Shown here piece by piece: positions 96-20,323 of a DNA stretch of 30,909 nt (position 1 is the stretch's first letter; the number at the start of each line of letters is the position of its first letter). The DNA is from a virus: the IMG/VR virus record IMGVR_UViG_3300028558_000080, positions 1 to 30,909 of that record; one strand, written 5' to 3'. The translations under genes and the position numbers were made by a program. The notes beneath the pieces are model-generated. The model worked only from the letters and a program-made list of their open reading frames with translations. It searched no databases and was not told the origin of the DNA.

Positions 96-884
96 TTACC
101 GCGGCGGGAACGGCGGCAGGGCTGGAGCCGCCGGTGGCATCGGAGGCGCTGCGTAGGTGGGCGCGGCGGGAGCGGTCGGGGGCGCCGCAACCGGAGGCGG
201 CATGGCGGCAGTGGGCCGCGGAGGCATCGGAGCGCCCGAAGTCGGACCAGGCTGCGCGTAGCCCTGCGCCGTGGGCATCGGCAGGCCAGCCGGGGCGGCG
301 TTGACGCCCGCGAAGATTTGGTCCGCCGAACGCTGCGCCGTGCCGATCGCTTCACCGGCACCGACGAACAGCACGCCTTCCATGTCGAACTTCACGCCCT
401 TGGATTTGTTGTCGTAGGTGAATGCGTAAGTCGACACGACGCAGTAGTCGCCGGACTTGTACGCATCCGTGGTACCGATCCGACGCGCCGGAATCTCGGT
501 GACCTGCCCGTTCTGGAGCATGGCGACCTTCGGCGCGTGGTTGCCGCTGAAATTGATAACCCAATGGTTCGCCATCCACGGGTACTTCGCGGCTTTCTGG
601 TCGCCGTCCTTGACCGGCCAGTTCGCGCCGGCGGGCCACTGGCCGTTCCACTCGGGCACCTGCGAGACGAGCGCCATCGCCGCGTTGGCGAACAGGAGAT
701 AATTCGCGCACTTGGTCGCGTCGCCGGACAGTTTGGGGATGAGGCCGACGAATTCGTATTTCTGATTTTCGGCGGGGATCGGAGCGCCGGACCCGTCCTT
801 GGTGCGCTTCTCGTGGATGTAGAAATACGCGCCGCGGATGGTCGGGGAATGGAAGGAAGGCGAACGCACGGTCTTGTGAGCCAT
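96..884 (-). CDS. Enc34-type single-stranded DNA-binding protein (DUF2815)
   Basis: A 262-residue protein. The N-terminal two thirds resemble the DUF2815/Enc34 ssDNA-binding family found in phage replication modules: an opening 'MAHKTVRSPSF', a 'WVINFSG' segment and a 'RIGTTDAYKSGDYC' segment. That family coats ssDNA during replication or recombination. The last roughly 75 residues are a low-complexity Pro/Ala tail, possibly a flexible tether. I chose the ATG at 884 because AGGAA lies 7 nt upstream; a TTG seven codons earlier is less likely. It is preceded by its own promoter (-35 at 954-959, -10 at 932-937), and that -35 overlaps the stop codon of the upstream SPFH gene. In related phages DUF2815 usually neighbours DUF2800 and a DNA polymerase; DUF2800 is present here, and a polymerase could lie beyond the left edge. 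Confidence 0.85.
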   Translation of the reverse strand: MAHKTVRSPSFHSPTIRGAYFYIHEKRTKDGSGAPIPAENQKYEFVGLIPKLSGDATKCANYLLFANAAMALVSQVPEWNGQWPAGANWPVKDGDQKAAKYPWMANHWVINFSGNHAPKVAMLQNGQVTEIPARRIGTTDAYKSGDYCVVSTYAFTYDNKSKGVKFDMEGVLFVGAGEAIGTAQRSADQIFAGVNAAPAGLPMPTAQGYAQPGPTSGAPMPPRPTAAMPPPVAAPPTAPAAPTYAAPPMPPAAPALPPFPPR

Positions 885-931
885 GACAGGTTTCCTAGGG
901 TTCAAAGGGTACGAAGTTTACGATGCCGGCC

Positions 932-959
932 ACTATACACCATTCCCGCGCACTGTCAA
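932..959 (-). promoter_or_regulatory. Promoter of the ssDNA-binding gene
   Basis: On the minus strand TTGACA (954-959), a 16-bp spacer and TATAGT (932-937). It belongs to the window-wide promoter family, AGTGCG subtype. The predicted leader is about 40 nt. The -35 contains the TGA stop of the SPFH gene. Confidence 0.75.
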
Positions 960-1522
960 CGCCCGACCACGGCCGCGAGCGGATGGGCGTTCCGGTGGCT
1001 GTCGAGGAATATCCGCATCTGCCGCGGCACCTCGGCGAAATTGGTGAACCCGACTGAAAAGACCTCCGTCCCCCACCGCTTCATCCGCGTGGTCAAGGTG
1101 CCTTCCAGCGACTTTTCCAGGTCGCGCAGACCGCCCGGCTCGGTCAGGTCTTTCAAATCTTTTTCGCGGATCCGCTGCGCCAGGTGTGTCATGGAAAGGC
1201 CGGCGGTGCTTTCGACGAAGTCCTGCACATTGCAGCCGTGCGCCACGACGTCGACCACCCGGAACCCGATGTTCACCGAGAAACAAACGAGCTTTTCGTC
1301 CTTGGTGATGACCGATTGCACCGGCAGGTCGATCACGTCGTCGCACATATCGTAGACGTCGAACGAATGCAGCAACCAGATTTTCCAGTGCGGGCCGGGG
1401 CGCATCGCCTTGGGGTTCCGCCCGAGCGTCCAGCGTATCCCCTCCTGATAGCTTTTCACCATCACGAATGGGAAAAGCGACATCAGGTTTTGGAGAATCA
1501 GTTCGACAATGGTGCCGTGCAT
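956..1522 (-). CDS. SPFH/band-7 (stomatin/prohibitin-like) domain protein
   Basis: A 188-residue protein with SPFH-domain character: 'YQEGIRWTLGR' followed by 'MRPGPHWKIW' is the typical entry strand pair, then a 'VQSVITKDEK' strand like the band-7 switch from basal to variable domain, and 'FRVVD' further on. Family members oligomerise on membranes and scaffold proteases or channels. There is no clear transmembrane helix, only a short hydrophobic stretch near residues 7-22, and the usual C-terminal coiled coil is short, so it is smaller than cellular homologues. The start ATG has no Shine-Dalgarno and begins 8 nt after a -10 box, so the mRNA is probably leaderless. SPFH proteins occur occasionally in phages; their role there is unknown to me. 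Confidence 0.7.
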   Translation of the reverse strand: MHGTIVELILQNLMSLFPFVMVKSYQEGIRWTLGRNPKAMRPGPHWKIWLLHSFDVYDMCDDVIDLPVQSVITKDEKLVCFSVNIGFRVVDVVAHGCNVQDFVESTAGLSMTHLAQRIREKDLKDLTEPGGLRDLEKSLEGTLTTRMKRWGTEVFSVGFTNFAEVPRQMRIFLDSHRNAHPLAAVVGR

Positions 1523-1530
1523 GGGGCGGC

Positions 1531-1559
1531 ACGATACGCCTGTTATGGTGTATTGTCAA
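1531..1559 (-). promoter_or_regulatory. Promoter of the SPFH gene (leaderless type)
   Basis: On the minus strand TTGACA (1554-1559) running into ATACACC, a 17-bp spacer and TATCGT (1531-1536). Only 8 nt separate the -10 from the ATG at 1522, leaving no room for a ribosome-binding site. It overlaps the 3' end of the 92-residue gene upstream. Confidence 0.75.
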
Positions 1560-1821
1560 CCAACGCCGCCAAAGCAGCGTCCGCACCCGCCCTGAAACAT
1601 TCGCGACACTTCTCCGCGTCCTCGCCTTCCTGGTCCCACCCGTCGTCGTCCATGTGACCCGGCTCGATCTCGTTGGCCTTTTTCTGCATCGCCTCGTAAA
1701 TGGCGCGGGCTAGTGTGTTGCGGTCAACACGCGCAAGCCTGTCTAGATGGGCGTGCGCCTCATCGACTGTCATACCGGCAGCGTGACACGCAACCAGATC
1801 GGCGTCTGCATATTTGGTCAT
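1543..1821 (-). CDS. Hypothetical protein, 92 aa
   Basis: An unrecognised acidic, Ala-rich protein with a 'CRECFRAGADAALAAL' tail, a pattern common at the C-terminus of small phage proteins. The ATG at 1821 is chosen because GGGAG and GGGGAA lie upstream; it overlaps the stop of the DUF2800 nuclease by 4 nt (ATGA), indicating translational coupling. Its last codons run into the promoter of the SPFH gene. Confidence 0.7.
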   Translation of the reverse strand: MTKYADADLVACHAAGMTVDEAHAHLDRLARVDRNTLARAIYEAMQKKANEIEPGHMDDDGWDQEGEDAEKCRECFRAGADAALAALVDNTP

Positions 1822-2930
1822 TTCCCCGTCACTCCCGCGAACATCTCCGACGCCGACTTGGTCCGCCACTCCGCGCGCTTGTCCGACGCAAATGCCAGCG
1901 CGGGGCCACCGTCCGGCCGCTCGGTCAGCGCCGCCACGTCGAGGCCCAACTTCTCCACACTCGCCGGCGTCGGCACGTCGAGCGCATCGGGGCCGAACTT
2001 TTCCAGGATCAGGCGCCGCGCCTCCGCTTCATTCTTCCACGCGCGGTGCTTCATCGTTTGCACCAGTTTAAGACCGGGCGCGGCCTTGCCGGCCATCGCG
2101 TCCTTGGTCCAAGCTTTCGACGCGCCCTTAAACCAATCTTCGATCGGCTTTTGCAACGTCAAGAACGTGGCCCGCGTGGCGGCCGGCACTTCGTCCGGTG
2201 TGTGCTGCATGGCGACGCCAAGGTGCGCCAGCAAGTCGCGCGTCGGCTCGCATCGCCCGAACAAGGGGCAATAGCGGCAGTGTTCGCCGGGTCGGAATTC
2301 ATAAGGCCCGTTTGGAATCGCCGCCACGCGCTGTATCCAAGCGTAGAGCGCGTCGATGCTTTCGACATCCTGCTTTACGCGCGGCCCTGGACGAAAATCA
2401 TTCGGTTGAACGCAGGCGTACCGGACCCATTTCGCAGGCAAACCCGGCTCGTCGAGCGGCCAGATTGCACCCGCCGCGTAGATGCGAAACTGCGCGCTCA
2501 TAGCGTCCACGCCGATGAACCCGTCTTTGTAGTCGGGAACAGTGAGGGTCGCGGACTCCTCGTGCCAGTGGCGAACGTCTGGCGTGCCGTGAATGTGCTT
2601 GGTCAGGTGAACGCGCTTCTCAACCCATATGCGCCCCGGTGGCAAGCCGCGCACATACGCGATCATCAGCGCCACGCCGTAGGCGGACGGGTGATCCGGG
2701 TCCACGGGCTCAATCGGCATCGTGGCGGGGTCAACGAATTCGCCGTTCAATGCGCCAAAGCAACGCTCGATTTCCTCGTGCGCGGCGGTGCCTTTTTGTG
2801 CCGCTTCGCCGGATTCCTGTTCGGGTAGTTGGGCAATGGCCAAGGGTGCGGCGGTGCATCCGCCCTCCTCGGCCCAACGGTCGCCCATGCTCGGCGCCCA
2901 AATTGCATGACTTCGTTCGGCGTGTGTCAT
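1818..2930 (-). CDS. DUF2800 family RecB/Cas4-like nuclease
   Basis: A 370-residue protein resembling DUF2800, a phage family of PD-(D/E)XK nucleases related to RecB and Cas4. Visible landmarks are 'GTAAHEEIE' near residues 48-55, 'GTPDVR' (115-120, Asp118), 'VPDYKDG' (131-137, Asp133 and Lys135) and a Cys cluster 'HCRYCPLFGRC' (217-227) that could hold an iron-sulfur or zinc site. The likely role is recombination or end-processing in phage DNA replication, alongside the ssDNA-binding protein. ATG 2930 has GGAG 8 nt upstream and overlaps the preceding stop (ATGA). Confidence 0.8.
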   Translation of the reverse strand: MTHAERSHAIWAPSMGDRWAEEGGCTAAPLAIAQLPEQESGEAAQKGTAAHEEIERCFGALNGEFVDPATMPIEPVDPDHPSAYGVALMIAYVRGLPPGRIWVEKRVHLTKHIHGTPDVRHWHEESATLTVPDYKDGFIGVDAMSAQFRIYAAGAIWPLDEPGLPAKWVRYACVQPNDFRPGPRVKQDVESIDALYAWIQRVAAIPNGPYEFRPGEHCRYCPLFGRCEPTRDLLAHLGVAMQHTPDEVPAATRATFLTLQKPIEDWFKGASKAWTKDAMAGKAAPGLKLVQTMKHRAWKNEAEARRLILEKFGPDALDVPTPASVEKLGLDVAALTERPDGGPALAFASDKRAEWRTKSASEMFAGVTGK

Positions 2931-3220
2931 GCAAACTCCATTTCCCTCAACACCGACGCAACGACCCGGCACCCCAACGCATTCTCCAAAAAGTTCTGCA
3001 GGTCCAAATGCGGCTCGCGGTCCAGATCGTCCAAGATCGCCTGCGCAATCTCGACCGTGGCGTCGTGCCAACGCCCGTTGGGGTCGAGGCAAAGGATACG
3101 GCGGATGTCCTTGGGTTCGGAGCGGACGGCGCGAACGGTCGCGGCCTTGGTGCAGTCGTGTAGGGTCCGCTCGGGGAAATAGACGCCGCCGTGGTGCGAG
3201 ACTTCGATGAGGTAGAGCAT
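2927..3220 (-). CDS. Hypothetical protein, 97 aa
   Basis: No family recognised. It begins 'MLYLIEVSHHGGVYFPERTL' and contains 'DPNGRWHDATVEIAQAIL', then a helical acidic segment. ATG 3220 has GAGGTG immediately upstream and overlaps the stop of the small CxxC protein by 1 nt; its own stop overlaps the DUF2800 start. It is part of the same transcription unit as the nuclease. Confidence 0.7.
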   Translation of the reverse strand: MLYLIEVSHHGGVYFPERTLHDCTKAATVRAVRSEPKDIRRILCLDPNGRWHDATVEIAQAILDDLDREPHLDLQNFLENALGCRVVASVLREMEFA

Positions 3221-3375
3221 CACTGCACCTCGCACCGAAATGATCCGGCTGGCTCGGGCAGTTCGTGGAAAGCGTGACCGCCTTGCGATGACGTAACGCG
3301 CGCCCATCCGTCGCGGCATAACTGACATTGCGCCTTTTGCTGCTCGGTCGGCGGCTTCGCAGTGTACGTTGGCAT
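3220..3375 (-). CDS. Small CxxC protein, 51 aa
   Basis: A short gene beginning 'MPTYTAKPPTEQQKAQCQLC' with a CQLC knuckle and one later Cys, so it could bind a metal. An excellent AGGAG lies 8 nt before ATG 3375, and the stop overlaps the next ATG (TGATG). It is the first gene after the promoter at 3425-3452. Function unknown. Confidence 0.7.
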   Translation of the reverse strand: MPTYTAKPPTEQQKAQCQLCRDGWARVTSSQGGHAFHELPEPAGSFRCEVQ

Positions 3376-3424
3376 TGCGCCTCTCCTCTAGTGCTACGGG
3401 CCGCCCCACCGAGGCGACCCGCTT

Positions 3425-3452
3425 ACACTACACCCTACACGCGCACTGTCAA
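3425..3452 (-). promoter_or_regulatory. Promoter of the DUF2800 operon
   Basis: On the minus strand TTGACA (3447-3452), a 16-bp spacer and TAGTGT (3425-3430); AGTGCG subtype. The stop codon TAG of the upstream gene (3453-3455) abuts the -35. Confidence 0.7.
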
Positions 3453-4082
3453 CTACGAAACGCCGAGCGCCTTGGCCACGCCGCCGCACTGCGCGTCGGT
3501 CGTGTATTGCAGGACGCCCATCGCCTCGTCCCAACTGACGTTTGGGATGACCAGGCCGATGCCCGGCGACGCGAGCCAGTCGAGGTACTGTTTCTTGGTC
3601 GCATCGTCACCGGCCTGCGCCTCGATATGCGCGCGAATCTTGGGGCCGAGTGTGATGGACGGCGCCGGCGGCGGGGCAACAGGGGCAGGCACAGCCGCCG
3701 CCCCGTCACGCTTCAGGAACGGCGGGATCGAGCCATCGTCGACAGCGGGCGCCGTGACCAGTGGCGGGACCGGGGGCACAGGCGGCGTCGGGGCGGCAGT
3801 CGGAATCGGAGCCGGCGGCGGAGCCGTGGCAGTTTCCGGGGCGGGCTGGTTCTTGGCCGGACGGTCGCGTTTCTTTGCGGTCGTGGGGGCCTCGGCGGCG
3901 GGCGCAGCCGGCGGCGCCGTGGTATTGTCCGCGGCGGGGGTTGATTCGGCGTCTTCTGAACCGATCTGGCGACGGGCTTCGACCATTTCCTCGCTGTTGA
4001 GGATGTCCATACCCTCCTTAACGGTGTCGACCTCGTATGTAATATCTACGGATTTTGGGTTGACAGTGAAAACGAACGGCAT
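3453..4082 (-). CDS. Proline/alanine-rich hypothetical protein, 209 aa
   Basis: The N-terminus (about residues 1-45, 'MPFVFTVNPKSVDITYEVDT') and the C-terminus (about residues 140-209, with 'DWLASPGIGL' and 'SWDEAMGVLQYTT') look folded. They are joined by roughly 90 residues of Pro/Ala/Thr-rich linker. No family recognised. The ATG at 4082 is preceded by AGGAG (10 nt), which rules out a TTG 24 codons upstream that lies in the promoter. It is the first gene of the leftward module; the two-domain, long-linker layout suggests a tethering or adaptor protein, which is inference. Confidence 0.75.
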   Translation of the reverse strand: MPFVFTVNPKSVDITYEVDTVKEGMDILNSEEMVEARRQIGSEDAESTPAADNTTAPPAAPAAEAPTTAKKRDRPAKNQPAPETATAPPPAPIPTAAPTPPVPPVPPLVTAPAVDDGSIPPFLKRDGAAAVPAPVAPPPAPSITLGPKIRAHIEAQAGDDATKKQYLDWLASPGIGLVIPNVSWDEAMGVLQYTTDAQCGGVAKALGVS

Positions 4083-4220: not shown

Positions 4221-4742
4221 ATGTACTGCGTATCGAATATCTCAAGCGATGGGGCACCTATGATCTACCGGGTTAAACGTCGTAAGAAATCGCCGCCTCC
4301 GCCTCCGCCGCCAAGCGGGCCGAGCAAGGTCACGAAAGAATTGATCGAGAAGATGTCGGCATTAGCCAAGAGAAACGGCAAACGCTACAACATCGGCGAT
4401 GACCGCCAATCGGGCCTTCGGACAATCCTCTATCCGAGCGGCGAAGTGGCGTTCAGCGCCACATATAGACTGGAAGCGTCGCGCCCTAACATCACAGTAG
4501 GCCAATATCCCGACACGACGATCGAGCAGGCCCGGCACCTTACGCGAATCGTACAGGGCATAGCCGATCGCGGCTATGATGTGCGCGAAGGTCTCCATGC
4601 CAGGCTCAGTAAAGAGCTGGAGCGGGATGGCCTGAGTTGGCACCCCACCAGCTATATCGATACAGTCGTAACCAAACTGCGCGAGCAGGGGGTCAAGATT
4701 TCCGACGAGGTAATCAAAGCGATCCGCAAGGAATTGACCTAA
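4221..4742 (+). CDS. Orphan DUF4102-like (integrase arm-binding) domain protein
   Basis: A 173-residue protein. After a basic, poly-proline N-terminus (seven Pro near residues 25-31) comes a segment matching the arm-type DNA-binding domain of P4-like tyrosine recombinases (DUF4102): 'GLRTILYPSGEVAFSATYRL' followed by 'ITVGQYPDTTIEQARHL'. The catalytic recombinase domain is absent; the C-terminal about 55 residues are a short helical region. It could be a DNA-binding regulator or an excisionase-like factor derived from an integrase. ATG 4221 has AGGAG 7 nt upstream; no convincing promoter of the window family is seen for it. It is transcribed divergently from the left module and ends in a strong terminator. 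Confidence 0.65.
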   Translation: MYCVSNISSDGAPMIYRVKRRKKSPPPPPPPSGPSKVTKELIEKMSALAKRNGKRYNIGDDRQSGLRTILYPSGEVAFSATYRLEASRPNITVGQYPDTTIEQARHLTRIVQGIADRGYDVREGLHARLSKELERDGLSWHPTSYIDTVVTKLREQGVKISDEVIKAIRKELT

Positions 4743-4746
4743 AACG

Positions 4747-4778
4747 GGGGCGGCTACTAGATATAGGGCCGCCCCTTT
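4747..4778 (+). terminator. Rho-independent terminator
   Basis: A perfect 8-bp stem, GGGGCGGC (4747-4754) with GCCGCCCC (4768-4775), a 13-nt loop, then TTT and a T-rich stretch. It lies just downstream of the DUF4102-like gene and upstream of the methyltransferase promoter, isolating the two units. Confidence 0.85.
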
Positions 4779-4793
4779 CACTTTGCGGTTAGG

Positions 4794-4822
4794 TTGACAA
4801 TACACCGTTAGCGCGGTATTGT
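4794..4822 (+). promoter_or_regulatory. Promoter of the methyltransferase/primase operon
   Basis: TTGACA (4794-4799), a 17-bp spacer and TATTGT (4817-4822). ACAATAC (4797-4803) and GTATTGT (4816-4822) form a perfect 7-bp inverted repeat spanning the core promoter. The predicted start site is about 3 nt before the ATG. Confidence 0.85.
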
Positions 4823-4831
4823 GCGCTGACG

Positions 4832-5581
4832 ATGCAGTTGGCAAAGTCACCCTCCCCCACCGTCAAGCTAATCCAAGGCGACTGCCTCGACGTGATGGCC
4901 ACGCTGCCATCCGCGTCCGTGGATATGATTCTTTGTGACTTGCCGTATGGAACGACTGCGTGCGCTTGGGATTCGGTCATCCCGTTTGAGCCGCTGTGGG
5001 CGCAGTACCGACGCATTGCGAAGCCGAATGCAGCGATCGTGCTCACTGCGAGCCAGCCGTTTACCACGGCGCTCATCCATTCGAACCTCGGCGAATTCCG
5101 ATATTCGTGGGTGTGGGAAAAAGAACAGGGCGTCAACTTTTTACTCGCAAAGAAACAGCCGCTGAAGGTTCACGAGGACGCCTGCGTATTTTATCGCGAG
5201 ACGCCGACTTACAACCCGCAAATGACCGTCGGCAAACCTTACGTCAGCGGTAAAGGCAGCAGCGGTGACGTAACCGGCAATGTGGTCAAGATACAGACGC
5301 AGAACGACGGCACTCGTTATCCTCGTAGCATTCAGTTCTTTAAACGCGAGACTGGTATCCACCCCACCCAAAAGCCCGTTGCGCTCTTTGAATATCTGAT
5401 CCGCACTTACACGCACCCCGGCGCCCTGGTCCTCGACAACTGTATCGGCAGTGGCACCACCGCCATTGCGGCACTCAACACCGGCCGCCGCGCCATCGGG
5501 ATCGAGCGCGACTTTGGTTACTTCACGATCGCCGCGCAGCGGGTGGCGGATGTCCTACAGCCACGTCGAGCCGCCGCATGA
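4832..5581 (+). CDS. DNA methyltransferase, beta-type (adenine-N6 or cytosine-N4)
   Basis: 249 residues. The catalytic motif IV 'DLPYGT' (36-41, a DPPY variant) comes first, the family signature 'HPTQKP' is at 177-182, and the AdoMet-binding motif I 'LDNCIGSGTT' is at 201-210. This order is the beta class of amino-methyltransferases, which methylate a specific DNA sequence, often to evade host restriction. It is the first gene of a four-to-five gene operon; ATG 4832 lacks a Shine-Dalgarno and lies about 3 nt from the expected transcription start, so it is near-leaderless. The next gene overlaps by ATGA. Target sequence unknown. Confidence 0.9.
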   Translation: MQLAKSPSPTVKLIQGDCLDVMATLPSASVDMILCDLPYGTTACAWDSVIPFEPLWAQYRRIAKPNAAIVLTASQPFTTALIHSNLGEFRYSWVWEKEQGVNFLLAKKQPLKVHEDACVFYRETPTYNPQMTVGKPYVSGKGSSGDVTGNVVKIQTQNDGTRYPRSIQFFKRETGIHPTQKPVALFEYLIRTYTHPGALVLDNCIGSGTTAIAALNTGRRAIGIERDFGYFTIAAQRVADVLQPRRAAA

Positions 5582-6135
5582 CCCACGGCATCCTCCTAGC
5601 CGCAAACAACGGCGGCGAGCGGCGCGCGCACGACTTCTATCCGACTCCGCCCGAGCCGACGCTGGCGCTCATTCCGAAGATTCGCCAATTCCCGGCACAG
5701 ATTTGGGAGCCTGCGTGTGGCGATGGCGGAATTGCCACGCCCCTCACCCGCGCCGGCTATCGCGTCATCGGCACCGATTTGATTGACCGCGGTTATGGCG
5801 AAGGCGGCGTGGATTTTCTCGCCACCACGCAATCCCGCGCGCAGGCCATCATCACCAACCCGCCTTTCGGCAAACTGGTGACGCGGTTCATCGAGCACGC
5901 GCTGGACCTGGACGTCCCGTTTATCGCGATGCTGCTGAACTCGAACTTGTGGCACGCCGCGCGCCGCGTCCCGCTCTGGAATCGCCGCGTGCCGGAAGCG
6001 GTCTATGCGATGTGCTTTCGTCCCGACTTCACCGGATCCGGCTCGCCCTACTTCAATTGCATCTGGACTGTTTGGGGACCGCGCAGCGCATCCGTCACCA
6101 AGTACGAACTGCTACGCGAGCCGTCAAAGCAATGA
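5578..6135 (+). CDS. SAM-dependent DNA methyltransferase (NPPF type)
   Basis: 185 residues. 'EPACGDG' (44-50) is the AdoMet-binding motif I, 'VIGTDL' the acidic strand after it, and 'TNPPFGK' (93-99) the catalytic motif IV of adenine-N6 methyltransferases. 'HDFYPTPPEP' near the N-terminus is the motif X-like lead seen in phage enzymes of this kind. No target-recognition domain is apparent and the size is small. It overlaps the preceding methyltransferase by 4 nt and the next gene by 4 nt, so the products are probably co-translated. Confidence 0.85.
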   Translation: MTHGILLAANNGGERRAHDFYPTPPEPTLALIPKIRQFPAQIWEPACGDGGIATPLTRAGYRVIGTDLIDRGYGEGGVDFLATTQSRAQAIITNPPFGKLVTRFIEHALDLDVPFIAMLLNSNLWHAARRVPLWNRRVPEAVYAMCFRPDFTGSGSPYFNCIWTVWGPRSASVTKYELLREPSKQ

Positions 6136-6401
6136 CCGCCAGGACCAATCCCGAATCGGACGCGTCTATCGAACGTATTGAGTGCGTCGCCCACCGCCTC
6201 CCCTCGGGCCGCATCGTTTCCCTACCCAGGCCCAAGCGGCACTGCCACTTGCCCGTGGCGACGCTTGCGGTGCCCGGCTTCCTGACAAGTGCGGGGCGGT
6301 TTGTGACGCGGGAGGAAGGGAGGCGAGTAGCGGAACAGGCGGGGCAGTTGGTGGTGGGGGCCATGCAAAGCAAGTGGCTGTTCAGTGAGGATGTGTGGTA
6401 G
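6132..6401 (+). CDS. Hypothetical protein, 89 aa
   Basis: Contains 'RPKRHCHLP' and 'GFLTSAGRFVTREEGRRVAE', a pattern I recognise from small uncharacterised phage proteins (a basic-His segment, then GFLTS.GRFV.R.E...A). No known function. It overlaps the genes on both sides (ATGA upstream, TAGTG downstream) within the methyltransferase operon, so a link to DNA modification is plausible but unproven. Confidence 0.7.
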   Translation: MTARTNPESDASIERIECVAHRLPSGRIVSLPRPKRHCHLPVATLAVPGFLTSAGRFVTREEGRRVAEQAGQLVVGAMQSKWLFSEDVW

Positions 6402-7216
6402 TGGCAAAACTAAGCAAAGCCGCCGCCAAGGCACATCAGCAAGCGTGCGACGTTCTGACAAAAGACAGCCTCACCATCGACGAACGCTGGTTCGTTATCG
6501 AGAACTGGCAAGAATCCGCGACCCACATCAACAGCACTGCCGGTGCATTCTTTACGCCGCCTGGGTTGGCTGGTGACTTTGCGATCGACGTCTGTGGGCA
6601 CCGCATCATCGATTTATGCGCCGGCATCGGCACATTGTCTTTTGCTCACTGGTCACGTTGCCGATTCGGCGAACGAATGCCGTCGATCGTCTGCATCGAA
6701 AAGAATCCCGACTATATCGCAGTGGGGCGGAAGATTCTGCCGGAAGCAACGTGGATTTGTGCCGACGTATTTGACGTCCCCGCCCTGATTCTCGGACGGT
6801 TTGACGTCGCAATTTCCAATCCGCCGTTTGGTTCGACGGCGCGGAACGGGCGCAAAGGACCGCAATTCACTGGCGCCGAGTTCGAGTACCATGTCATCGA
6901 TATCGCCGCCGACCTGGCGGACTACGGGGTTTTCATCATTCCGCAGATGTCAGCACCGTTTCAGTTCAGCGGAAAGCAGCATTTTACCGAGCGCAAACAC
7001 GACAAATATTTGGATTTTGTCAAACAGACGGGCGTTGAATTGACCAACGGATGCGGTGTTGACTGCGACTACCACAAGGACGGGTGGCACGGAGTTTCGC
7101 CGACCGTGGAAATTGTGTGCGCTGAATTTCCGAAACGGGAACTGGTCAAATTGCCGTCCGTCTCGCCGCTCCCGTTTGTGCAGCACGTACCAGCCCCGCC
7201 GCGGCTCGCCGCATGA
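6401..7216 (+). CDS. N6-adenine DNA methyltransferase (N-6 MTase type)
   Basis: 271 residues from GTG 6401 (a GTG two codons earlier is equally possible). An N-terminal helical region is followed by 'FTPPGLAGDF', 'IDLCAGIGTLS' (motif I, 70-80), 'CIEKNP' (motif II) and 'ISNPPFG' (motif IV, 138-144), the signature of type I/IIG-like adenine methyltransferases. The conserved 'STAGAFFTP' stretch before motif I is typical of this family. It is the third methyltransferase in a row, overlapping its neighbours by 1-4 nt. Target sequence unknown. Confidence 0.85.
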   Translation: MAKLSKAAAKAHQQACDVLTKDSLTIDERWFVIENWQESATHINSTAGAFFTPPGLAGDFAIDVCGHRIIDLCAGIGTLSFAHWSRCRFGERMPSIVCIEKNPDYIAVGRKILPEATWICADVFDVPALILGRFDVAISNPPFGSTARNGRKGPQFTGAEFEYHVIDIAADLADYGVFIIPQMSAPFQFSGKQHFTERKHDKYLDFVKQTGVELTNGCGVDCDYHKDGWHGVSPTVEIVCAEFPKRELVKLPSVSPLPFVQHVPAPPRLAA

Positions 7217-9807
7217 CCACAGCCACGCAAGCCGCCCTCACCTACTATGGCGCGCACAAGTGCGCCCTATTTCCGATTCCCGCCGGGTCAAAGAACCCGA
7301 CCGGTATCGTTGCCTCCTTCGCGCACGACCACAGTGCATCGCCAGAGCAATGGGCCGCCTGGTCTCGCGACCATAACTGCAATTTCGGCGTGGTCGCCGG
7401 CCCTTCGCGGCTCATCATCGTCGACACGGATATTAAAAAAATCGGCCGCGACGCCGCGTGGGCGGAACGCTGCCGCCTCTTTATCGAATGGGGCATCGAC
7501 CCCGCCAAGCACCAACCCCACGTCCAGTCCGCCTCGGGTGGATGGCACGACTATTTCGCGGTCCCCGTCGACACAGACGCGACCCAACTGCGCCAGCCGC
7601 CGGCCGCTGGCTGCGTGGATATTCGCGCCGGCAATGGCTTCGCGGTCGCCGCCGGGTCGCACCATGACGGACGTCCCTACCTACTCCTGTCCGACGCGCC
7701 GCCCCATCCCGCACCCGAGGCCCTGCTCCGCCACTGTGCCCGCCGCGCAACGACCACGCCCGCTGCCAACGTCGGCACGCGCGACGCCACGGACGTCGCC
7801 GCCCTCTTTACGTGGCTCGCCGAGCGCGACGAGTTCGCCGACTATACCGCATGGGTCGGCGCCGGTATGGCCGCGAAACTGGAATTCGGCGACGACGGTC
7901 TCGAACTCTGGCGGTTGACGCATAACGAGACCGTGACGCCAGACATTGAACACAGCAAGTGGCAGTCGTTCGCCGCCGAGCCGTCCCCCGGCTGCATGAC
8001 CATCAACTCGATTATGTCGCGCGCCCACGCCGCCGGCTGGCGTGGCCAGGTGCGTAAGTCCTCCGCCGCCATGTTCAACGAGGTTGCACAGCTCGCCGCG
8101 GCGGCCGGCGCCTCGCTTCCTCCCGGTTCGCAAGCAATGCCGATGGTAGCGGGTCAGCAAGCCTTGACCGACATCGCCGCGCCGATCCTCGACGAGTTTC
8201 TGACCAGCACGCGCGACCTGCCGTCCCGGCCAGCGGATCCCGACTCCCCCACCCTGCCCGACGCCGCCTCTGGTCACGGCCTCTATCGCCCCTTGAAGGA
8301 AGCTGTCGCGCGCATCCTCGCCGCGGCCGAAAGCCCCAAGTCGTTCAAGGGCAGCCGCTACACCGACGCCCTTGCCTTGCTATCGCTGGTTCACCAGGAC
8401 ACGTTCGACTGTGTCTGCCGGCGCATTCGCACGCTCGGCTGCACCCTGCCCGACTCGCGCATCAAAACCACCGCGGCGGCGTATGCTGATCGGGTCGAGC
8501 GCGCGTTCGTCAAGCAAGACGACTGGATTTACGATGCCAAGGGGCAGATTGAAAACACGAACAGCGACAACGTCGCCGTCCTGCTCAATATCCTGAACAT
8601 CTCGATCCGCTACAACGCGTGGCTGGAGCGAATGGAAATTCAGGGCGGCATTGATGACCTGCGCTTTCCGGACTGGACCTATGTCGACGACCTCATCATC
8701 GCCCGTCTGCGCACGCGCGCCAACCGGACCAAGACGCGATTCACGCCTGCGAAAGAGTTCTTTTGGGAGAGCTTAATATCGCTGGCCGTGGCGAATTCGG
8801 TTGACCCTGTGCTGGACCGCCTTACCGAACTCGAACGCGCTTGGGACCGCAAGCCGCGCCTCTCGACTTGGCTTTCCCACGCCTGCCACACCGAATGCGA
8901 CCCGTATCACCAAGCTGTGTCGCGCAACATCCTGGGCGGCCTTGTGCGCAGGGCGCGCGAACCCGGCGCCAAGCACGATACGATGGCCGTATTCCACGGC
9001 CCGCAAGGCCCCGGCAAGTCGACAATGGCCGCGGTCATCGCCGACCTTGGTGTGACGCCCCTTGCCACCATTCTGTCCCGCTCCAGCCCTTGGTTCACCG
9101 ACACTGTGTTGCTCGGCGCAGAATCGAAAGAGTTGGTCCTGGCGCTCGCCGGCAAGACCGTCGCCGAGATTGGCGAAATGGGCATGCGCGGCTCCGTCAA
9201 CGCCAACGTCGTCAAGGCGATGGTCAGCCGCCAAGTCGACGAAGGGCGCACGGCTTACGCTCGCGCCGTCACGTCGCGCCCGCGGCGCAATATCTTCATC
9301 GGCACGGTGAACGGCGACGAGCCGTTGACGGACCCCACCGGCAACCGCCGGTTCCTGCCCGTCGCAGTTCACAGTGCGATCGACCTTGAATGGCTGTCCG
9401 CGAACATTGGCCAGATCGTCGGCGAGGCTGCCGCGCTCCACACCGCTGGCGTGTCGTTCGACCTGCCTGCGTCGGTTTGGGGCATTGCCGCCGAGCACCA
9501 GGAAGCGGCGCGCGGCGAGTCGGACATCGAGATCAAGTTCGCGGAATGGTTCAGTGGCGAGGGACTCGCGTTCGTCACCGCGTCGGACCTGGTCGATGCG
9601 TGCTCGTGGTCGAACCTGCGCACCAATACCCACGGCGTCTATATGAAGCGCCTAGGATTCCGGCCGATGACCGCGTATGTCGAGGGAAAGAAAAAGCGCG
9701 TTTGGTATCGCGGGCCGGATCTCGGCACGACCAAGGGCGCCGTGCGCTACATGGTGGGGCGGGATGCGAACGGCCGGACGCGCGTGGAGATCAGGGTGGC
9801 GGGGTAG
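7213..9807 (+). CDS. Prim-pol / VapE-like superfamily 3 helicase fusion
   Basis: 864 codons. The N-terminal domain is a bifunctional primase-polymerase: 'VDTDIKK' with the DxD pair D71/D73, 'SGGWHDYF' (108-115) and 'VDIRAGNGF' (135-143). A PriCT-like linker follows (about 195-290, 'DYTAWVGAGMAAK'). The C-terminal domain is a VirE/VapE-type (D5-like) ATPase: Walker A 'GPQGPGKST' (596-604), the acidic 'AEIGEMG' strand near 650-657 and 'GTVNGDEPLTDPTGNRRFLP' near 695-715. It should prime and unwind phage DNA at the fork. It is the last gene of the methyltransferase operon (ATGA overlap) and is convergent with the small-gene operon. Confidence 0.9.
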   Translation: MTTATQAALTYYGAHKCALFPIPAGSKNPTGIVASFAHDHSASPEQWAAWSRDHNCNFGVVAGPSRLIIVDTDIKKIGRDAAWAERCRLFIEWGIDPAKHQPHVQSASGGWHDYFAVPVDTDATQLRQPPAAGCVDIRAGNGFAVAAGSHHDGRPYLLLSDAPPHPAPEALLRHCARRATTTPAANVGTRDATDVAALFTWLAERDEFADYTAWVGAGMAAKLEFGDDGLELWRLTHNETVTPDIEHSKWQSFAAEPSPGCMTINSIMSRAHAAGWRGQVRKSSAAMFNEVAQLAAAAGASLPPGSQAMPMVAGQQALTDIAAPILDEFLTSTRDLPSRPADPDSPTLPDAASGHGLYRPLKEAVARILAAAESPKSFKGSRYTDALALLSLVHQDTFDCVCRRIRTLGCTLPDSRIKTTAAAYADRVERAFVKQDDWIYDAKGQIENTNSDNVAVLLNILNISIRYNAWLERMEIQGGIDDLRFPDWTYVDDLIIARLRTRANRTKTRFTPAKEFFWESLISLAVANSVDPVLDRLTELERAWDRKPRLSTWLSHACHTECDPYHQAVSRNILGGLVRRAREPGAKHDTMAVFHGPQGPGKSTMAAVIADLGVTPLATILSRSSPWFTDTVLLGAESKELVLALAGKTVAEIGEMGMRGSVNANVVKAMVSRQVDEGRTAYARAVTSRPRRNIFIGTVNGDEPLTDPTGNRRFLPVAVHSAIDLEWLSANIGQIVGEAAALHTAGVSFDLPASVWGIAAEHQEAARGESDIEIKFAEWFSGEGLAFVTASDLVDACSWSNLRTNTHGVYMKRLGFRPMTAYVEGKKKRVWYRGPDLGTTKGAVRYMVGRDANGRTRVEIRVAG

Positions 9808-12210: not shown

Positions 12211-12432
12211 TCACGCGGCTCGCGCGTTTACGAATTTGTTCGACAGGCCAAGCGCGTCGTCGATCACCTGCTTCAGCTCCGACCACTGTTCTGCTGTGAT
12301 GCGGTATGTGACATCGATCTGCACCGCAGCCTCGCCATCGTCGCCTGGCGTGATGACGGCCTTAGCGGCGTATCCACTCCCGTCGCTATAGGGAGCGGCC
12401 CTGACCGTGATTTCGTAGTTGGCCTCGCTCAT
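12211..12432 (-). CDS. Hypothetical protein, 73 aa
   Basis: Beta-rich N-terminus ('ANYEITVRAAPYSDGSGYAA') and a C-terminal helix. ATG 12432 lies 8 nt after AAGGAG inside a 28-nt sequence that recurs exactly in front of the 61-residue gene at 12878, so both share one initiation cassette. Confidence 0.7.
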   Translation of the reverse strand: MSEANYEITVRAAPYSDGSGYAAKAVITPGDDGEAAVQIDVTYRITAEQWSELKQVIDDALGLSNKFVNARAA

Positions 12433-12454
12433 TTCCCGCTCCTTCGCGTTCGCA
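12427..12454 (-). repeat. 28-nt initiation cassette, copy 1
   Basis: An exact 28-nt match to 12873-12900. It contains AAGGAG and the first codons ATGAG of the downstream gene. Confidence 0.9.
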
Positions 12455-12692: not shown

Positions 12693-12878
12693 TTAGCGCC
12701 ACTCGTCCTTGGCGCGCCGACGCAGATGGTCAGCCATGTCCGCAAGGTTGTCCGTCATGCGGTCGTAAGCGCCATCCGCAGTCCGGTCGTAAGCCTCGGC
12801 CTCGGTCGCATTCGGATGCCGTTCGAGATACCGCTCGATCAGTTCCTCATGCGCGGCGATGAAAAGTTCTTTGCTCAT
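12693..12878 (-). CDS. Hypothetical helical protein, 61 aa
   Basis: Begins 'MSKELFIAAHEELIERYLER' with an internal near-repeat of 'AYDR(T/M)' (residues about 29-41). ATG 12878 follows the same 28-nt initiation cassette found at 12427-12454. Unrecognised. Confidence 0.7.
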   Translation of the reverse strand: MSKELFIAAHEELIERYLERHPNATEAEAYDRTADGAYDRMTDNLADMADHLRRRAKDEWR

Positions 12879-12900
12879 TTCCCGCTCCTTCGCGTTCGCA
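12873..12900 (-). repeat. 28-nt initiation cassette, copy 2
   Basis: Identical to 12427-12454 and located at the same place relative to a start codon. Confidence 0.9.
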
Positions 12901-13750: not shown

Positions 13751-13984
13751 TTACCGCGGCCCTTGCCACAAGACCGCTTGGTCCGCTCTGTGCCTTTCCG
13801 CGTCCTTCGCCCGCTGCTGCTCGATGTACGCATGTAAGATCAGGTCATCATCGCGATCGGGGTTGGCCGGGATGCTGGCGCGCGGCCCTTCGGCATCCTT
13901 ACGCCAGAACACGTTTTCAAAACGGCGCAGCGATTCGCTCGCTTCGTCGTGGCCGATCGGACGTTTTGTCAGTAGATCGCTCAT
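13751..13984 (-). CDS. Hypothetical protein, 77 aa; first gene of the leftward operon
   Basis: Charged and helical, beginning 'MSDLLTKRPIGHDEASESLR'. Unrecognised. GGAG lies 9 nt before ATG 13984; the predicted start site of the minus-strand promoter is about 15 nt upstream. Confidence 0.7.
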   Translation of the reverse strand: MSDLLTKRPIGHDEASESLRRFENVFWRKDAEGPRASIPANPDRDDDLILHAYIEQQRAKDAERHRADQAVLWQGPR

Positions 13985-14005
13985 GGCTACGGCTCCATTT
14001 CAAGC

Positions 14006-14034
14006 ACCGTACTACGGTTGACAATCCGCGTCAA
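14006..14034 (-). promoter_or_regulatory. Leftward promoter of the small-gene operon
   Basis: On the minus strand TTGACG (14029-14034), a 17-bp spacer and TACGGT (14006-14011). It lies on top of the rightward promoter at 14018-14046, so both cannot be occupied at once. Confidence 0.6.
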
Positions 14035-14046
14035 GTGTATTATTGT
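14018..14046 (+). promoter_or_regulatory. Rightward promoter of the GIY-YIG gene
   Basis: TTGACA (14018-14023), a 17-bp spacer and TATTGT (14041-14046). It overlaps the divergent leftward promoter. Confidence 0.8.
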
Positions 14047-14070
14047 GCACCATCGTCCACACCACCCAAA

Positions 14071-14799
14071 ATGGAGGCTGCCTTGCCGCGGCGCGTCGCC
14101 GATTCACCCACCACGATTTATTGGCTCGTGGATACGTCCAACGGAGAGGCGTTCTACTGCGGCAAATCCGTTCACCCGGACGATCGGCTGCATTACCACG
14201 CATACACCGGGCGCCGCGGCGACAAGACGGCTACCGCCAAGCGCATCGCAGCCTGCCCCGATGGCGCGCTCAAGATGCACGTCATCCAGGTCGTGCCCGT
14301 GGGTGGCGACTGGCGCGAGGCCGAGCGGCGCTGGATACGCCAGCTCCGCATCATCAACCCGCACGGATGCACCAATCGAGCGGACGGCGGCTCCGGTGTT
14401 CCCGGCTACGTTTGGTCGGACGAAGCGCGCGACATGATGAGCTGGCGCCGACAAGGTAAGCCCATGTCCGAGGCGGCCAAGGCGCGACTGAGCGCGACCA
14501 TGAAAGCGAAGTGGGCGAACGGCGAGTTCACTCACAAAAACCCAAATTTCGGTAAGAACCAAAAAGGCAAGGTGCTCTCCGAATCGCACATCAACAATCT
14601 GCGAATAGCCGCTCGCAAACGATGGAGCAATGCACCCAATGGTCCGGCGTACACTGCCCGCGCCGTGATGGCCGAGAAAATAGAAAATATGATGCGACAA
14701 CTGGCGGGACGCTCGTTAGTCGGACTGAGTGCGAGGCGATTGGCGGAGTTACGGCAAGAGGCTTATTGGAAAGTCGTAGCCGACAAGAAAGCCGCTTGA
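14071..14799 (+). CDS. GIY-YIG homing-type endonuclease with NUMOD3-like repeats
   Basis: 242 residues. 'TIYWLVDTSNGEAFYCGKS' is the GIY-YIG-like strand pair with the following G-K-S, and 'EAERRWIRQL' carries the catalytic Arg/Glu helix region. Downstream are NUMOD3-type DNA-binding segments ('SDEARDMMSWRRQGKPMSEA' and 'NPNFGKNQKGKVLSESHI'), as in phage-borne homing endonucleases. ATG 14071 has no Shine-Dalgarno and an mRNA leader of only about 18 nt; the frame is open upstream, but those codons lie in the promoter. It sits as a free-standing gene between the leftward operon and the origin-like region. Confidence 0.8.
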   Translation: MEAALPRRVADSPTTIYWLVDTSNGEAFYCGKSVHPDDRLHYHAYTGRRGDKTATAKRIAACPDGALKMHVIQVVPVGGDWREAERRWIRQLRIINPHGCTNRADGGSGVPGYVWSDEARDMMSWRRQGKPMSEAAKARLSATMKAKWANGEFTHKNPNFGKNQKGKVLSESHINNLRIAARKRWSNAPNGPAYTARAVMAEKIENMMRQLAGRSLVGLSARRLAELRQEAYWKVVADKKAA

Positions 14800-14883
14800 G
14801 GCCGTCCGGTACACAGCCGTACACGCACCGGAACAGCCCGTTCATATTCAATTGTTCTAACGTGTTCCGTTGCGCTAGTAACT

Positions 14884-14896
14884 GTTGACAGTCAAC
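14884..14896. repeat. 13-bp palindrome over a -35 box
   Basis: GTTGACAGTCAAC, perfectly symmetric about the central A. It includes the -35 of the promoter-like site ending at 14912. Confidence 0.85.
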
Positions 14897-14912
14897 GTAC
14901 TGTAATTATTGT
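14885..14912 (+). promoter_or_regulatory. Promoter-like site without an obvious gene
   Basis: TTGACA (14885-14890), a 16-bp spacer and TATTGT (14907-14912), matching the family. No gene follows for about 400 nt, so it could make an untranslated RNA through the origin-like region. Confidence 0.5.
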
Positions 14913-15157
14913 TCTATTCGCAATTTTCCGAGCACAACCGGAAGGTCTACATAGCGTAGAACAGCGCGCTATAAGCGTGTGTACAGACTTAAAGTCAACC
15001 CCCATATAGCGAATTTGGCGCGAATTACAATTTATGAACGGAACGGCCGCCTACATAGGCTACGGGGCGCACAGTACGCTGCGATTATACGTATACACTG
15101 CTATTATGAGTAGACAGGTAAGTAATATTGACCTATTTCTGTAGAACTCTTCAAACG

Positions 15158-15232
15158 GTCTGTGTATATGTTCTAACTGTTCCGAATCGGAAAAAGAACC
15201 GATGAAATGGGCATTTTTCGATATACACAGAC
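15158..15232. repeat. 12-bp inverted repeat with 51-nt spacing
   Basis: GTCTGTGTATAT (15158-15169) and its exact complement ATATACACAGAC (15221-15232). The arms flank a GTTCTAAC element and a GGTTC-type short dyad. Confidence 0.8.
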
Positions 15233-15297
15233 TCAGCCGGTTGCCTGTGGCTCCTAGGTATACTCCCCGGTTGTGCGATTATCCGTTGACAATGCAG

Positions 15298-15325
15298 TTG
15301 ACAGTGCGCCGCGTCGGTGTATGAT
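15298..15325 (+). promoter_or_regulatory. Rightward promoter of the small-gene run
   Basis: TTGACA (15298-15303), a 16-bp spacer and TATGAT (15320-15325). A second TTGACA lies 12 bp upstream (15286-15291) without a matching -10. Confidence 0.75.
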
Positions 15326-15356: not shown

Positions 15357-15578
15357 GTGGTCAGCACAAAAGAGATTCAGGTTCTCGTGGATAGGATGCG
15401 CCGGGCTGGCGCGACCGTCGAAGTACGATACGACCGCGTGCCGGCCATAATGGAAGGTCGCGACATGATCGTGGAGAACGTCACCATCACCGACGCGAAG
15501 GGTATCGGCCCGCATCCGATGTCGCCGATCGCCGCTGCAGAACGCATGCGCGCGTGGCTCGTTGGACGGGAGGGCTGA
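15357..15578 (+). CDS. Hypothetical protein, 73 aa
   Basis: Starts at GTG 15357 with GGAGA upstream; in-frame ATG codons further up lie in the -10 region. Sequence 'STKEIQVLVDRMRRAG' then 'EGRDMIVENVTI'. Unrecognised. Confidence 0.55.
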   Translation: MVSTKEIQVLVDRMRRAGATVEVRYDRVPAIMEGRDMIVENVTITDAKGIGPHPMSPIAAAERMRAWLVGREG

Positions 15579-19777: not shown

Positions 19778-20323
19778 ATGACTCTGACTATCGAATACGT
19801 CCGTCGCCTGGTCGACTACAATCCGGAAACCGGTGAGTTCAGGTGGCGACCGCGAGAGGTTCGCTCGCACTATGACCGTATATGGAACACTCAGAATGCG
19901 GGTAACATAGCCGGTTGCAACGCGCACCACGGCTATCGCGCGATTACGCTTTACGGCAAGCGGTACTACGCTCACAGGCTTGCCTATTTCTATATGACCG
20001 GTGAGATGCCGCGAAATATAGACCACAAGAACCTCGACACAACTGACAACCGTTTTGCCAATTTGCGTCCGGCGACTGCGACTCAGAACCACGCGAATAA
20101 ACGAAAGTCTCCACAAAACACGAGCGGTGTGAAAGGCGTAAGTCTACATCGGGCTACGGGTAAGTGGCAGGCGTCTTTGAGCGTAGAGAAGCGTCGGGTG
20201 TGGCTTGGTCTACATGAGAGGCTTGAGGACGCGGTTGCCGCTTACAATAGAGGGGCCGTGGAGCATTTTGGGGAATACGCTCGCTTGGCGGAAATTCCGC
20301 CGGAAATGCGCTCCTCGCAGTGA
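19778..20323 (+). CDS. HNH endonuclease with C-terminal AP2 domain
   Basis: 181 residues. 'YRAITLYGKRYYAHRLAYF' and 'IDHKNLDTTDNRFANLRPAT' make the HNH core, and the C-terminal 'SGVKGVSLHRATGKWQASL' with 'FEHFGEYA'-like ending ('AVEHFGEYARL') is an AP2-type DNA-binding fold. This is the classical free-standing homing HNH-AP2 endonuclease of phages. ATG 19778 has no Shine-Dalgarno and coincides with the predicted start site, so it is probably leaderless. The helicase start overlaps its stop. Confidence 0.85.
   Translation: MTLTIEYVRRLVDYNPETGEFRWRPREVRSHYDRIWNTQNAGNIAGCNAHHGYRAITLYGKRYYAHRLAYFYMTGEMPRNIDHKNLDTTDNRFANLRPATATQNHANKRKSPQNTSGVKGVSLHRATGKWQASLSVEKRRVWLGLHERLEDAVAAYNRGAVEHFGEYARLAEIPPEMRSSQ

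Follow-up and report, generated by a model that had tools for sequence, protein, structure and literature searches.

A probable iteron-type replication origin in an AT-rich island of phage contigs with a fused Prim-Pol/VapE protein

Probable origin in the window

A 30,909-bp IMG/VR virus record (the window), contained in a near-identical 55,323-bp contig, was analyzed and found to carry an AT-rich non-coding island at 14800-15320 that is a probable iteron-type origin (ori), overlapping early rightward promoters. Overall, our analysis suggests that the island is likely to be the theta-type iteron origin of this phage, read by its primase-helicase. The observations behind this are the presence of the repeats, their number above chance, the similar islands of ten relatives and the domains that make up the protein. 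As in iteron origins, a short word is present in several copies above chance in non-coding DNA, next to an AT-rich and easily melted stretch.

Binding, melting, priming and the direction of replication are steps that we infer. The short phage-specific word (GTTCTA(A)C/GTTCCG), present as tandem pairs with 9-10-bp spacing and, on both strands, as single copies, would make up one set at 14854-14962 and another at 15142-15199, separated by DNA that melts easily. Through its C-terminal winged helix, the Prim-Pol/VapE protein (7213-9807) would bind the word and load helicase rings, the loaded rings would open the AT-rich stretch, and the Prim-Pol domain would then prime replication.

Origins are unknown for most tailed phages of such size outside the classic models, and the main guide to fused Prim-Pol/VapE proteins of phages has so far been analogy to those of satellites and plasmids. 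No paper on these islands was found in a search of an open-access collection that covers few subscription journals. If true, this reading predicts where a group of environmental phage contigs of 53-65 kb have their origin and names an initiator whose reading domain is separable, and the diverged word/domain pairs allow direct tests of iteron recognition and replicon incompatibility.

Composition and repeats of the island

The island was recognized by its composition and by equivalents in ten relatives that share the primase, and no other non-coding stretch of the window or of the near-identical 55.3-kb contig is as AT-rich. GC falls from about 0.61 to 0.46 across 14751-15250, and in the 55.3-kb contig the island is the sole stretch with GC below 0.46 (300-bp windows). 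Nearest-neighbor energies place the least stable 60 bp of the window at 15084-15143, between the two iteron sets, as a candidate DNA unwinding element.

All four copies of TGTTCTA in the 30.9-kb window are inside the island. The same is true for five of the eight copies of GTTCTA, three on the plus strand (14854, 14911 and 15170) and two on the minus strand (14957 and 15142). Five copies of GTTCTA within 14806-15272 were reached in none of 2000 dinucleotide shuffles (mean 0.27); any hexamer at all reached five copies there in 4% of shuffles. Iteron set one (14854-14962), with three words on the plus strand and one on the minus strand, consists of pair 1 (GTTCTAACGT-GTTCCG, 14854-14869, plus strand, 10-bp spacing) and, by word count, a single GTTCTA at 14911-14916 (plus strand) and a single at 14957-14962 (minus strand, TAGAAC on the plus strand). 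Set two (15142-15199), with one word on the minus strand, two on the plus strand and one degenerate on the minus strand, consists of pair 2 (GTTCTAACT-GTTCCG, 15170-15184, plus strand, 9-bp spacing) and, again by word count, a single at 15142-15147 (minus strand, TAGAAC on the plus strand) and a possible degenerate iteron at 15195-15199 (AGAAC; GTTCT on the minus strand). Most relatives have more tandem GTTC pairs than the window, which has just two, and the 500 bp of the window with the highest density of GT[TC]C pairs is not the island.

The direct repeat GTTCTAACGTGTTCCG (14854-14869) and GTTCTAACTGTTCCG (15170-15184) differs by a one-base gap, and such a pair occurs in 1% of shuffles. The 12-bp inverted repeat GTCTGTGTATAT and ATATACACAGAC (15158-15169 and 15221-15232) is exact, a length reached in none of 500 dinucleotide shuffles; it surrounds iteron pair 2, and the stretch 15158-15232 may fold into a branched hairpin (DNA fold -17 kcal/mol, z -5.05). 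Two 13-bp palindromes are present, GTTGACAGTCAAC at 14884-14896 (odd, with a central A) and TTCCGAATCGGAA at 15180-15192. A sequence-only reading made earlier had described the sharp GC drop, the five GTTCTA/TAGAAC elements in both orientations, the extended direct repeat, the 12-bp inverted repeat, one 13-bp palindrome and a promoter-like site with no gene; every one of these features was found again, with two 13-bp palindromes.

Islands in related contigs

Relatives were gathered by primase and helicase searches, which provided ten diverged contigs with a Prim-Pol/VapE protein (34-60% identical to the window protein) plus sequence downstream of the gene. An AT-rich intergenic island was found downstream of the gene, 0.1-5 kb away, in all ten; because the contigs were recovered via primase or helicase, they do not sample the association of island and primase independently. 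The islands are at 3814-4486 in L010, 14965-15465 in L011, 10300-10950 in L022, 4870-5540 in L054, 1880-2340 in L056 (L056/L074), 15770-16360 in L061, 5060-5500 in L062, 12965-13585 in L063, 13320-13775 in L064 and 13415-13800 in L066. The distance from the initiator gene is 5 kb in the window and about 0.7-1.4 kb in L062, L064 and L066. The lowest-GC 300 bp of the whole contigs (that of the window, L010 and L011) or of the fetched loci (the others) fall in the island, with the exception of L066, where GC is slightly lower beside the island in a neighboring stretch that reads like an inserted gene. In the three whole contigs the windows with GC below 0.46 cluster at the island, and one of them (G002) has one further small low-GC place.

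Every island has short words on both strands, many of them in tandem at 7-10 bp. Examples are GTTCAATA-GTTCAATA-GTTCACTT in L061, GTTCTAGGT-GTTCTAGAC-GTCCAACCC in L066, GTTCCAGCC-GTTCTAGGC with an inverted copy 98 bp away in L022, GTTCTTAGT-GTTCTTTGC-GTTCAAACC in L056, and the repeated GTAACTGGC with GTTAC in 9-bp tandem in L011. The word varies among phages (GTTCTA, GTTCA, GTTAC, GTCCA). Analysis of tandem GT[TC]C pairs (7-10 bp) in 11 islands revealed 37 pairs against 2.3 expected, with a maximum of seven in 300 shuffle rounds. Tested individually, ten of the 11 islands gave P <= 0.027; L011 fails this test and passes with GTT[CA] (P 0.01). The GT[TC]C pattern was picked after some islands had been inspected, and a tetramer ranking and the islands found later served as two guards. 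When all 256 tetramers were ranked for tandem spacing without preselection, GTTC with its complement came first (26 pairs against 0.6 expected), and GTTC also topped the ranking in five islands that came to light once the pattern had been noticed.

By inspection, most relatives have minus-strand words in the left cluster and plus-strand words in the right one, resulting in inverted repeats around an AT-rich middle. From the coordinates inspected, this arrangement is clear in L010, L022, L056, L061, L062 and L066; in the window it is less regular, each set combining both orientations instead of a clean left-minus/right-plus layout.

Same-build islands at the corresponding place in ten relatives, tandem words far above chance and an anatomy as published for PICI/SaPI (PMC6092414, PMC7581432) support the iteron-type origin that the sequence-only reading had proposed. 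Its further expectation, that the elements would be conserved in relatives, held for architecture and place in the ten relatives and did not hold for the GTTCTA word; judged from the sequences compared, it is the architecture and place that are conserved and not the word. Expectation maximization on the islands of the relatives gave a 9-position motif that came to follow composition and recognized no site in the window, because the words differ between phages.

Some further contigs are of limited use for this comparison. The near-identical contigs L003 and L005-L008 give no conservation information because their island is 100% identical over the stretch covered. L076 (Afipia MAG) ends about 745 bp past the primase, before any island could appear, L077 (genome_contigs) matches residues 511-766 only, at 27% identity, and L055 has a rearranged module with a possible island. 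Islands with other words are present in L023 (2040-2290, GTTCGG) and L065 (13950-14330, TGCCCGG). As read from sequence, these two have the same Prim-Pol domain with a different C-terminal domain and a RepA-like helicase, which suggests swaps of helicase and reader on a fixed primase.

Prim-Pol/VapE protein as proposed initiator

The proposed initiator is a fused Prim-Pol/VapE-type helicase encoded on the plus strand at 7213-9807 (Prim-Pol, PF09250, E 2.5e-23; VapE, E 3.5e-50). Its helicase part is closest to staphylococcal PriRep1 (7pds; sequence E 1.2e-38, fold E 4.6e-11), and the fold of its N-terminal part is closest to the pRN1 (1ro0/1rni) and NrS-1 Prim-Pol enzymes. The last 120 residues contain a predicted alpha-beta-alpha-alpha-beta-beta unit, which is the winged-helix order, at moderate confidence (pLDDT 79). 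This C-terminal domain (residues 771-835; 9523-9717, plus strand), a predicted winged helix, is the proposed iteron reader. A structure search with the domain gave no significant match; a PadR winged-helix regulator came closest (E 0.048).

Comparison of proteins with different words (the group of the window) revealed 43% identity in the C-terminal domain against 69% in the helicase, and those with shared words (GTTCTAG/GTCCA) have 57% against 65%. Such C-terminal variability is as expected for a word reader, in a set of few sequences confounded with overall phylogeny. The domain make-up fits an iteron reader; the presence of the gene itself is not independent evidence because most relatives were found by that gene. 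We tentatively suggest that in this phage group the origin word (GTTCTA, GTTCA, GTTAC, GTCCA) and the C-terminal winged helix may have been rewritten repeatedly and in step, with no change in origin position or in the remaining machinery, so that the replicons of closely related phages would not cross-fire in co-infection.

The main rival reader is the small arm-type DNA-binding protein of the primase operon (4221-4742, plus strand, PF13356, E 3.1e-7). The repeats would then be an origin or control site read by this protein, and the primase would be recruited through it. Of the 14 related records searched, 11 have a PF13356 match, in most cases within the primase operon or immediately upstream of it, and arm-binding domains of integrases read short direct repeats. 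A parallel is provided by pRN1, in which a small regulator precedes the primase gene (PMC4234260). However, TGTTCTA is absent from the window outside the island, giving no sign of autoregulation at the protein's own promoter, and the L066 genome has no match to the protein though its island iterons are strong. The SaPI and SCC precedents, moreover, place the reading in the helicase C-terminus (PMC7581432), and we consider the arm-type protein an unlikely reader of the repeats.

Promoters and transcription control

The right edge of the island carries an early rightward promoter (15285-15325, plus strand; -35 boxes at 15286 and 15298, -10 box TATGAT at 15320), and the island therefore doubles as a transcription control and start region. 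This promoter serves the first rightward gene (15357-15578, plus strand; 73 amino acids, GTG start, no Pfam match), whose start was re-read as 15357 because the ATG at 15321 overlaps the -10 box. The promoter at 15298-15325, which the sequence-only reading had missed, is stronger than the orphan promoter-like site described there (14884-14912, plus strand; TTGACA-16-TATTGT at 14885-14912), which includes the palindrome GTTGACAGTCAAC. As a class, promoter-like sites in the island are not clearly above chance (three found against 1.5 expected).

GTTGACA occurs at 18 sites in the window, including 4059, 4793, 14017, 14884, 15285, 15297 and 15784, and by inspection most copies are shortly upstream of gene starts on the matching strand. 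It appears to be the standard -35 box of this phage, on both strands and genome-wide. Since most window copies lie just upstream of gene starts, those of the island are best taken for ordinary promoters too. The master control region, offered by the sequence-only reading as the alternative to an origin, is thus correct in part, the GTTGACA boxes of the island looking like the phage's ordinary promoters.

It is also improbable that the island is only a control site, with early-gene operators and promoters and with GTTC words bound by a repressor or activator. Three promoter-type -35 boxes, one of them in an orphan promoter, and the location at the boundary between leftward and rightward small-gene runs would agree with this, but GTTGACA boxes upstream of genes throughout the genome indicate that it takes more than promoters to account for the island. 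Ordinary operators do not resemble this layout, in which words in tandem at 7-10 bp occur on both strands about an AT-rich center, and in whole contigs the island is the lowest-GC stretch of the genome. L011 encodes an S24-type (LexA/CI-like) repressor close to its island (13754-14383), and this phage may be temperate; a pure operator reading is weakened because such a gene was found in only this one of the 14 related records searched.

Comparison with known systems

In PICI/SaPI origins, two iteron sets flank an AT-rich melting region and are bound by the C-terminal domain of the Rep helicase (PMC6092414, PMC7581432). SaPI Rep recognizes an origin immediately after its own gene through the C-terminal domain, and the corresponding domain of Cch2 binds iteron DNA when isolated (PMC7581432). 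The phage studied here shares with SaPIbov1, SaPI5 and EcCICFT073 two sets of short iterons around an AT-rich stretch and, as predicted, a self-loading initiator helicase with a DNA-binding C-terminus; the helicase is related to PriRep/VapE, its core matching PriRep1 (7pds). Unlike these satellites, it is a phage of ~55 kb, its primase is an archaeo-eukaryotic Prim-Pol fused to VapE, and its iteron word changes between relatives. The PICI/SaPI origin is directly downstream of the initiator gene, whereas the islands are 0.1-5 kb away, and in the window 5 kb with other genes lie between. Because of this distance in the window, the island is considered to work like a PICI/SaPI origin and is not classed as one.

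The type I iterons of satellite phage P4 contain TGTTCACC and hence a GTTC core too. P4 alpha combines a primase, an SF3-class helicase and a C-terminal winged helix that binds origin repeats in one protein (PMC4234260 citing Ziegelin and Lanka, Yeo et al.), and the same combination is predicted in the window protein. The two are likened by domain make-up: alpha has a Toprim primase (PMC4234260), whereas the window protein has a Prim-Pol domain (PF09250) and no Toprim primase domain.

In pRN1 ORF904 and phage BIP-1, Prim-Pol, helicase and C-terminal winged helix occur together with a proposed stem-loop origin downstream of the gene, without iterons (PMC4234260). Domain order and a proposed origin downstream of the gene are shared with the window, where the Prim-Pol fold matches 1ro0/1rni. 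In an origin of this type the stem-loop rather than the iterons would be essential and the initiator would assemble on the hairpin, as proposed by Berkner et al. for Prim-Pol/SF3/winged-helix replicons including phage BIP-1 (PMC4234260). Folding as single-stranded DNA is strong in the window (15152-15238, z -5.05) and in L022 (10625-10792, z -7.55), but weak in L011, L054 and L061 (best z about -1.6) despite their clear iterons, so that a large stable stem-loop is not common to all members. Control windows in G001 reach z -3.2, and inverted iteron clusters yield a stem as a by-product. With stem-loops strong in the window and L022 and weak in several relatives, iterons are the more general and more consistent feature, and a hairpin origin of the pRN1 type is quite doubtful. 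Finally, an AT-rich spacer with accidental repeats is most improbable: even if some hexamer, its choice allowed for, appears five times in 4% of shuffles, the build recurs in ten relatives with 37 tandem pairs against 2.3 expected.

GC skew

The iteron-type origin was also compared with GC skew, for which the sequence-only reading had expected a change at the island. The cumulative GC-skew minimum lies near the island in G002 (117 bp away) and in G001 (about 0.8 kb); in G003 the undetrended cumulative minimum is at the record start. To allow for the influence of gene direction on skew, gene strand and side of the island were both used as predictors in a regression of third-codon-position skew. 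The side effect was +0.043 (se 0.014) in G001, +0.027 (0.013) in G002 and null in G003, at +0.002 (0.011). The expected change was thus seen in two of the three whole contigs and not in the third, a modest agreement with bidirectional replication from the island.

Gene layout, host and named relatives

Genes of the window were called with an ad hoc codon model. Leftward genes at 96-4082 include an Enc34-type single-strand binding protein and a DUF2800 exonuclease, and rightward genes at 4221-9807 include DNA methylases and the fused Prim-Pol/VapE protein (7213-9807). Small leftward genes follow up to 13984, then a GIY-YIG homing-type endonuclease gene (14071-14799, plus strand) that abuts the island. 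To the right of the island are small rightward genes, helicase, terminase, portal and major head protein. A tblastn search for GIY-YIG homologues found none near the other islands compared and a single match elsewhere in L064. The window has no Rfam match and no tRNA.

In the comparison with named phages, 13-17 kb had no DNA match in the phage collection. Rhizobium phages are the best named relatives by portal, and the Afipia MAG contig (L076) carries one diverged primase copy (54% identity); based on these two sequence relationships an alphaproteobacterial host is likely. The portals of Rigallicvirus P106B and RHph_X2_24 are related (about 45% identity), and as in the window the genome-minimum GC of these phages is in a gap among early genes, 365-402 bp long (NC_023566 52746-53149, GC 0.24; MW960031 45379-45744, GC 0.35; L048 and L049). 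These gaps are possibly their origins. Rigallicvirus was set aside as a named relative for the island, since its primases have no significant similarity to that of the window and its islands are analogous at most.

Beside the GIY-YIG gene, the window has a second homing-type gene, an HNH endonuclease gene at 19778-20323 that matches AP2 weakly. An exact 28-nt direct repeat (12427-12454 and 12873-12900) is located at the starts of the leftward small genes 12211-12432 and 12693-12878 and is probably a duplicated leader or ribosome-binding region.
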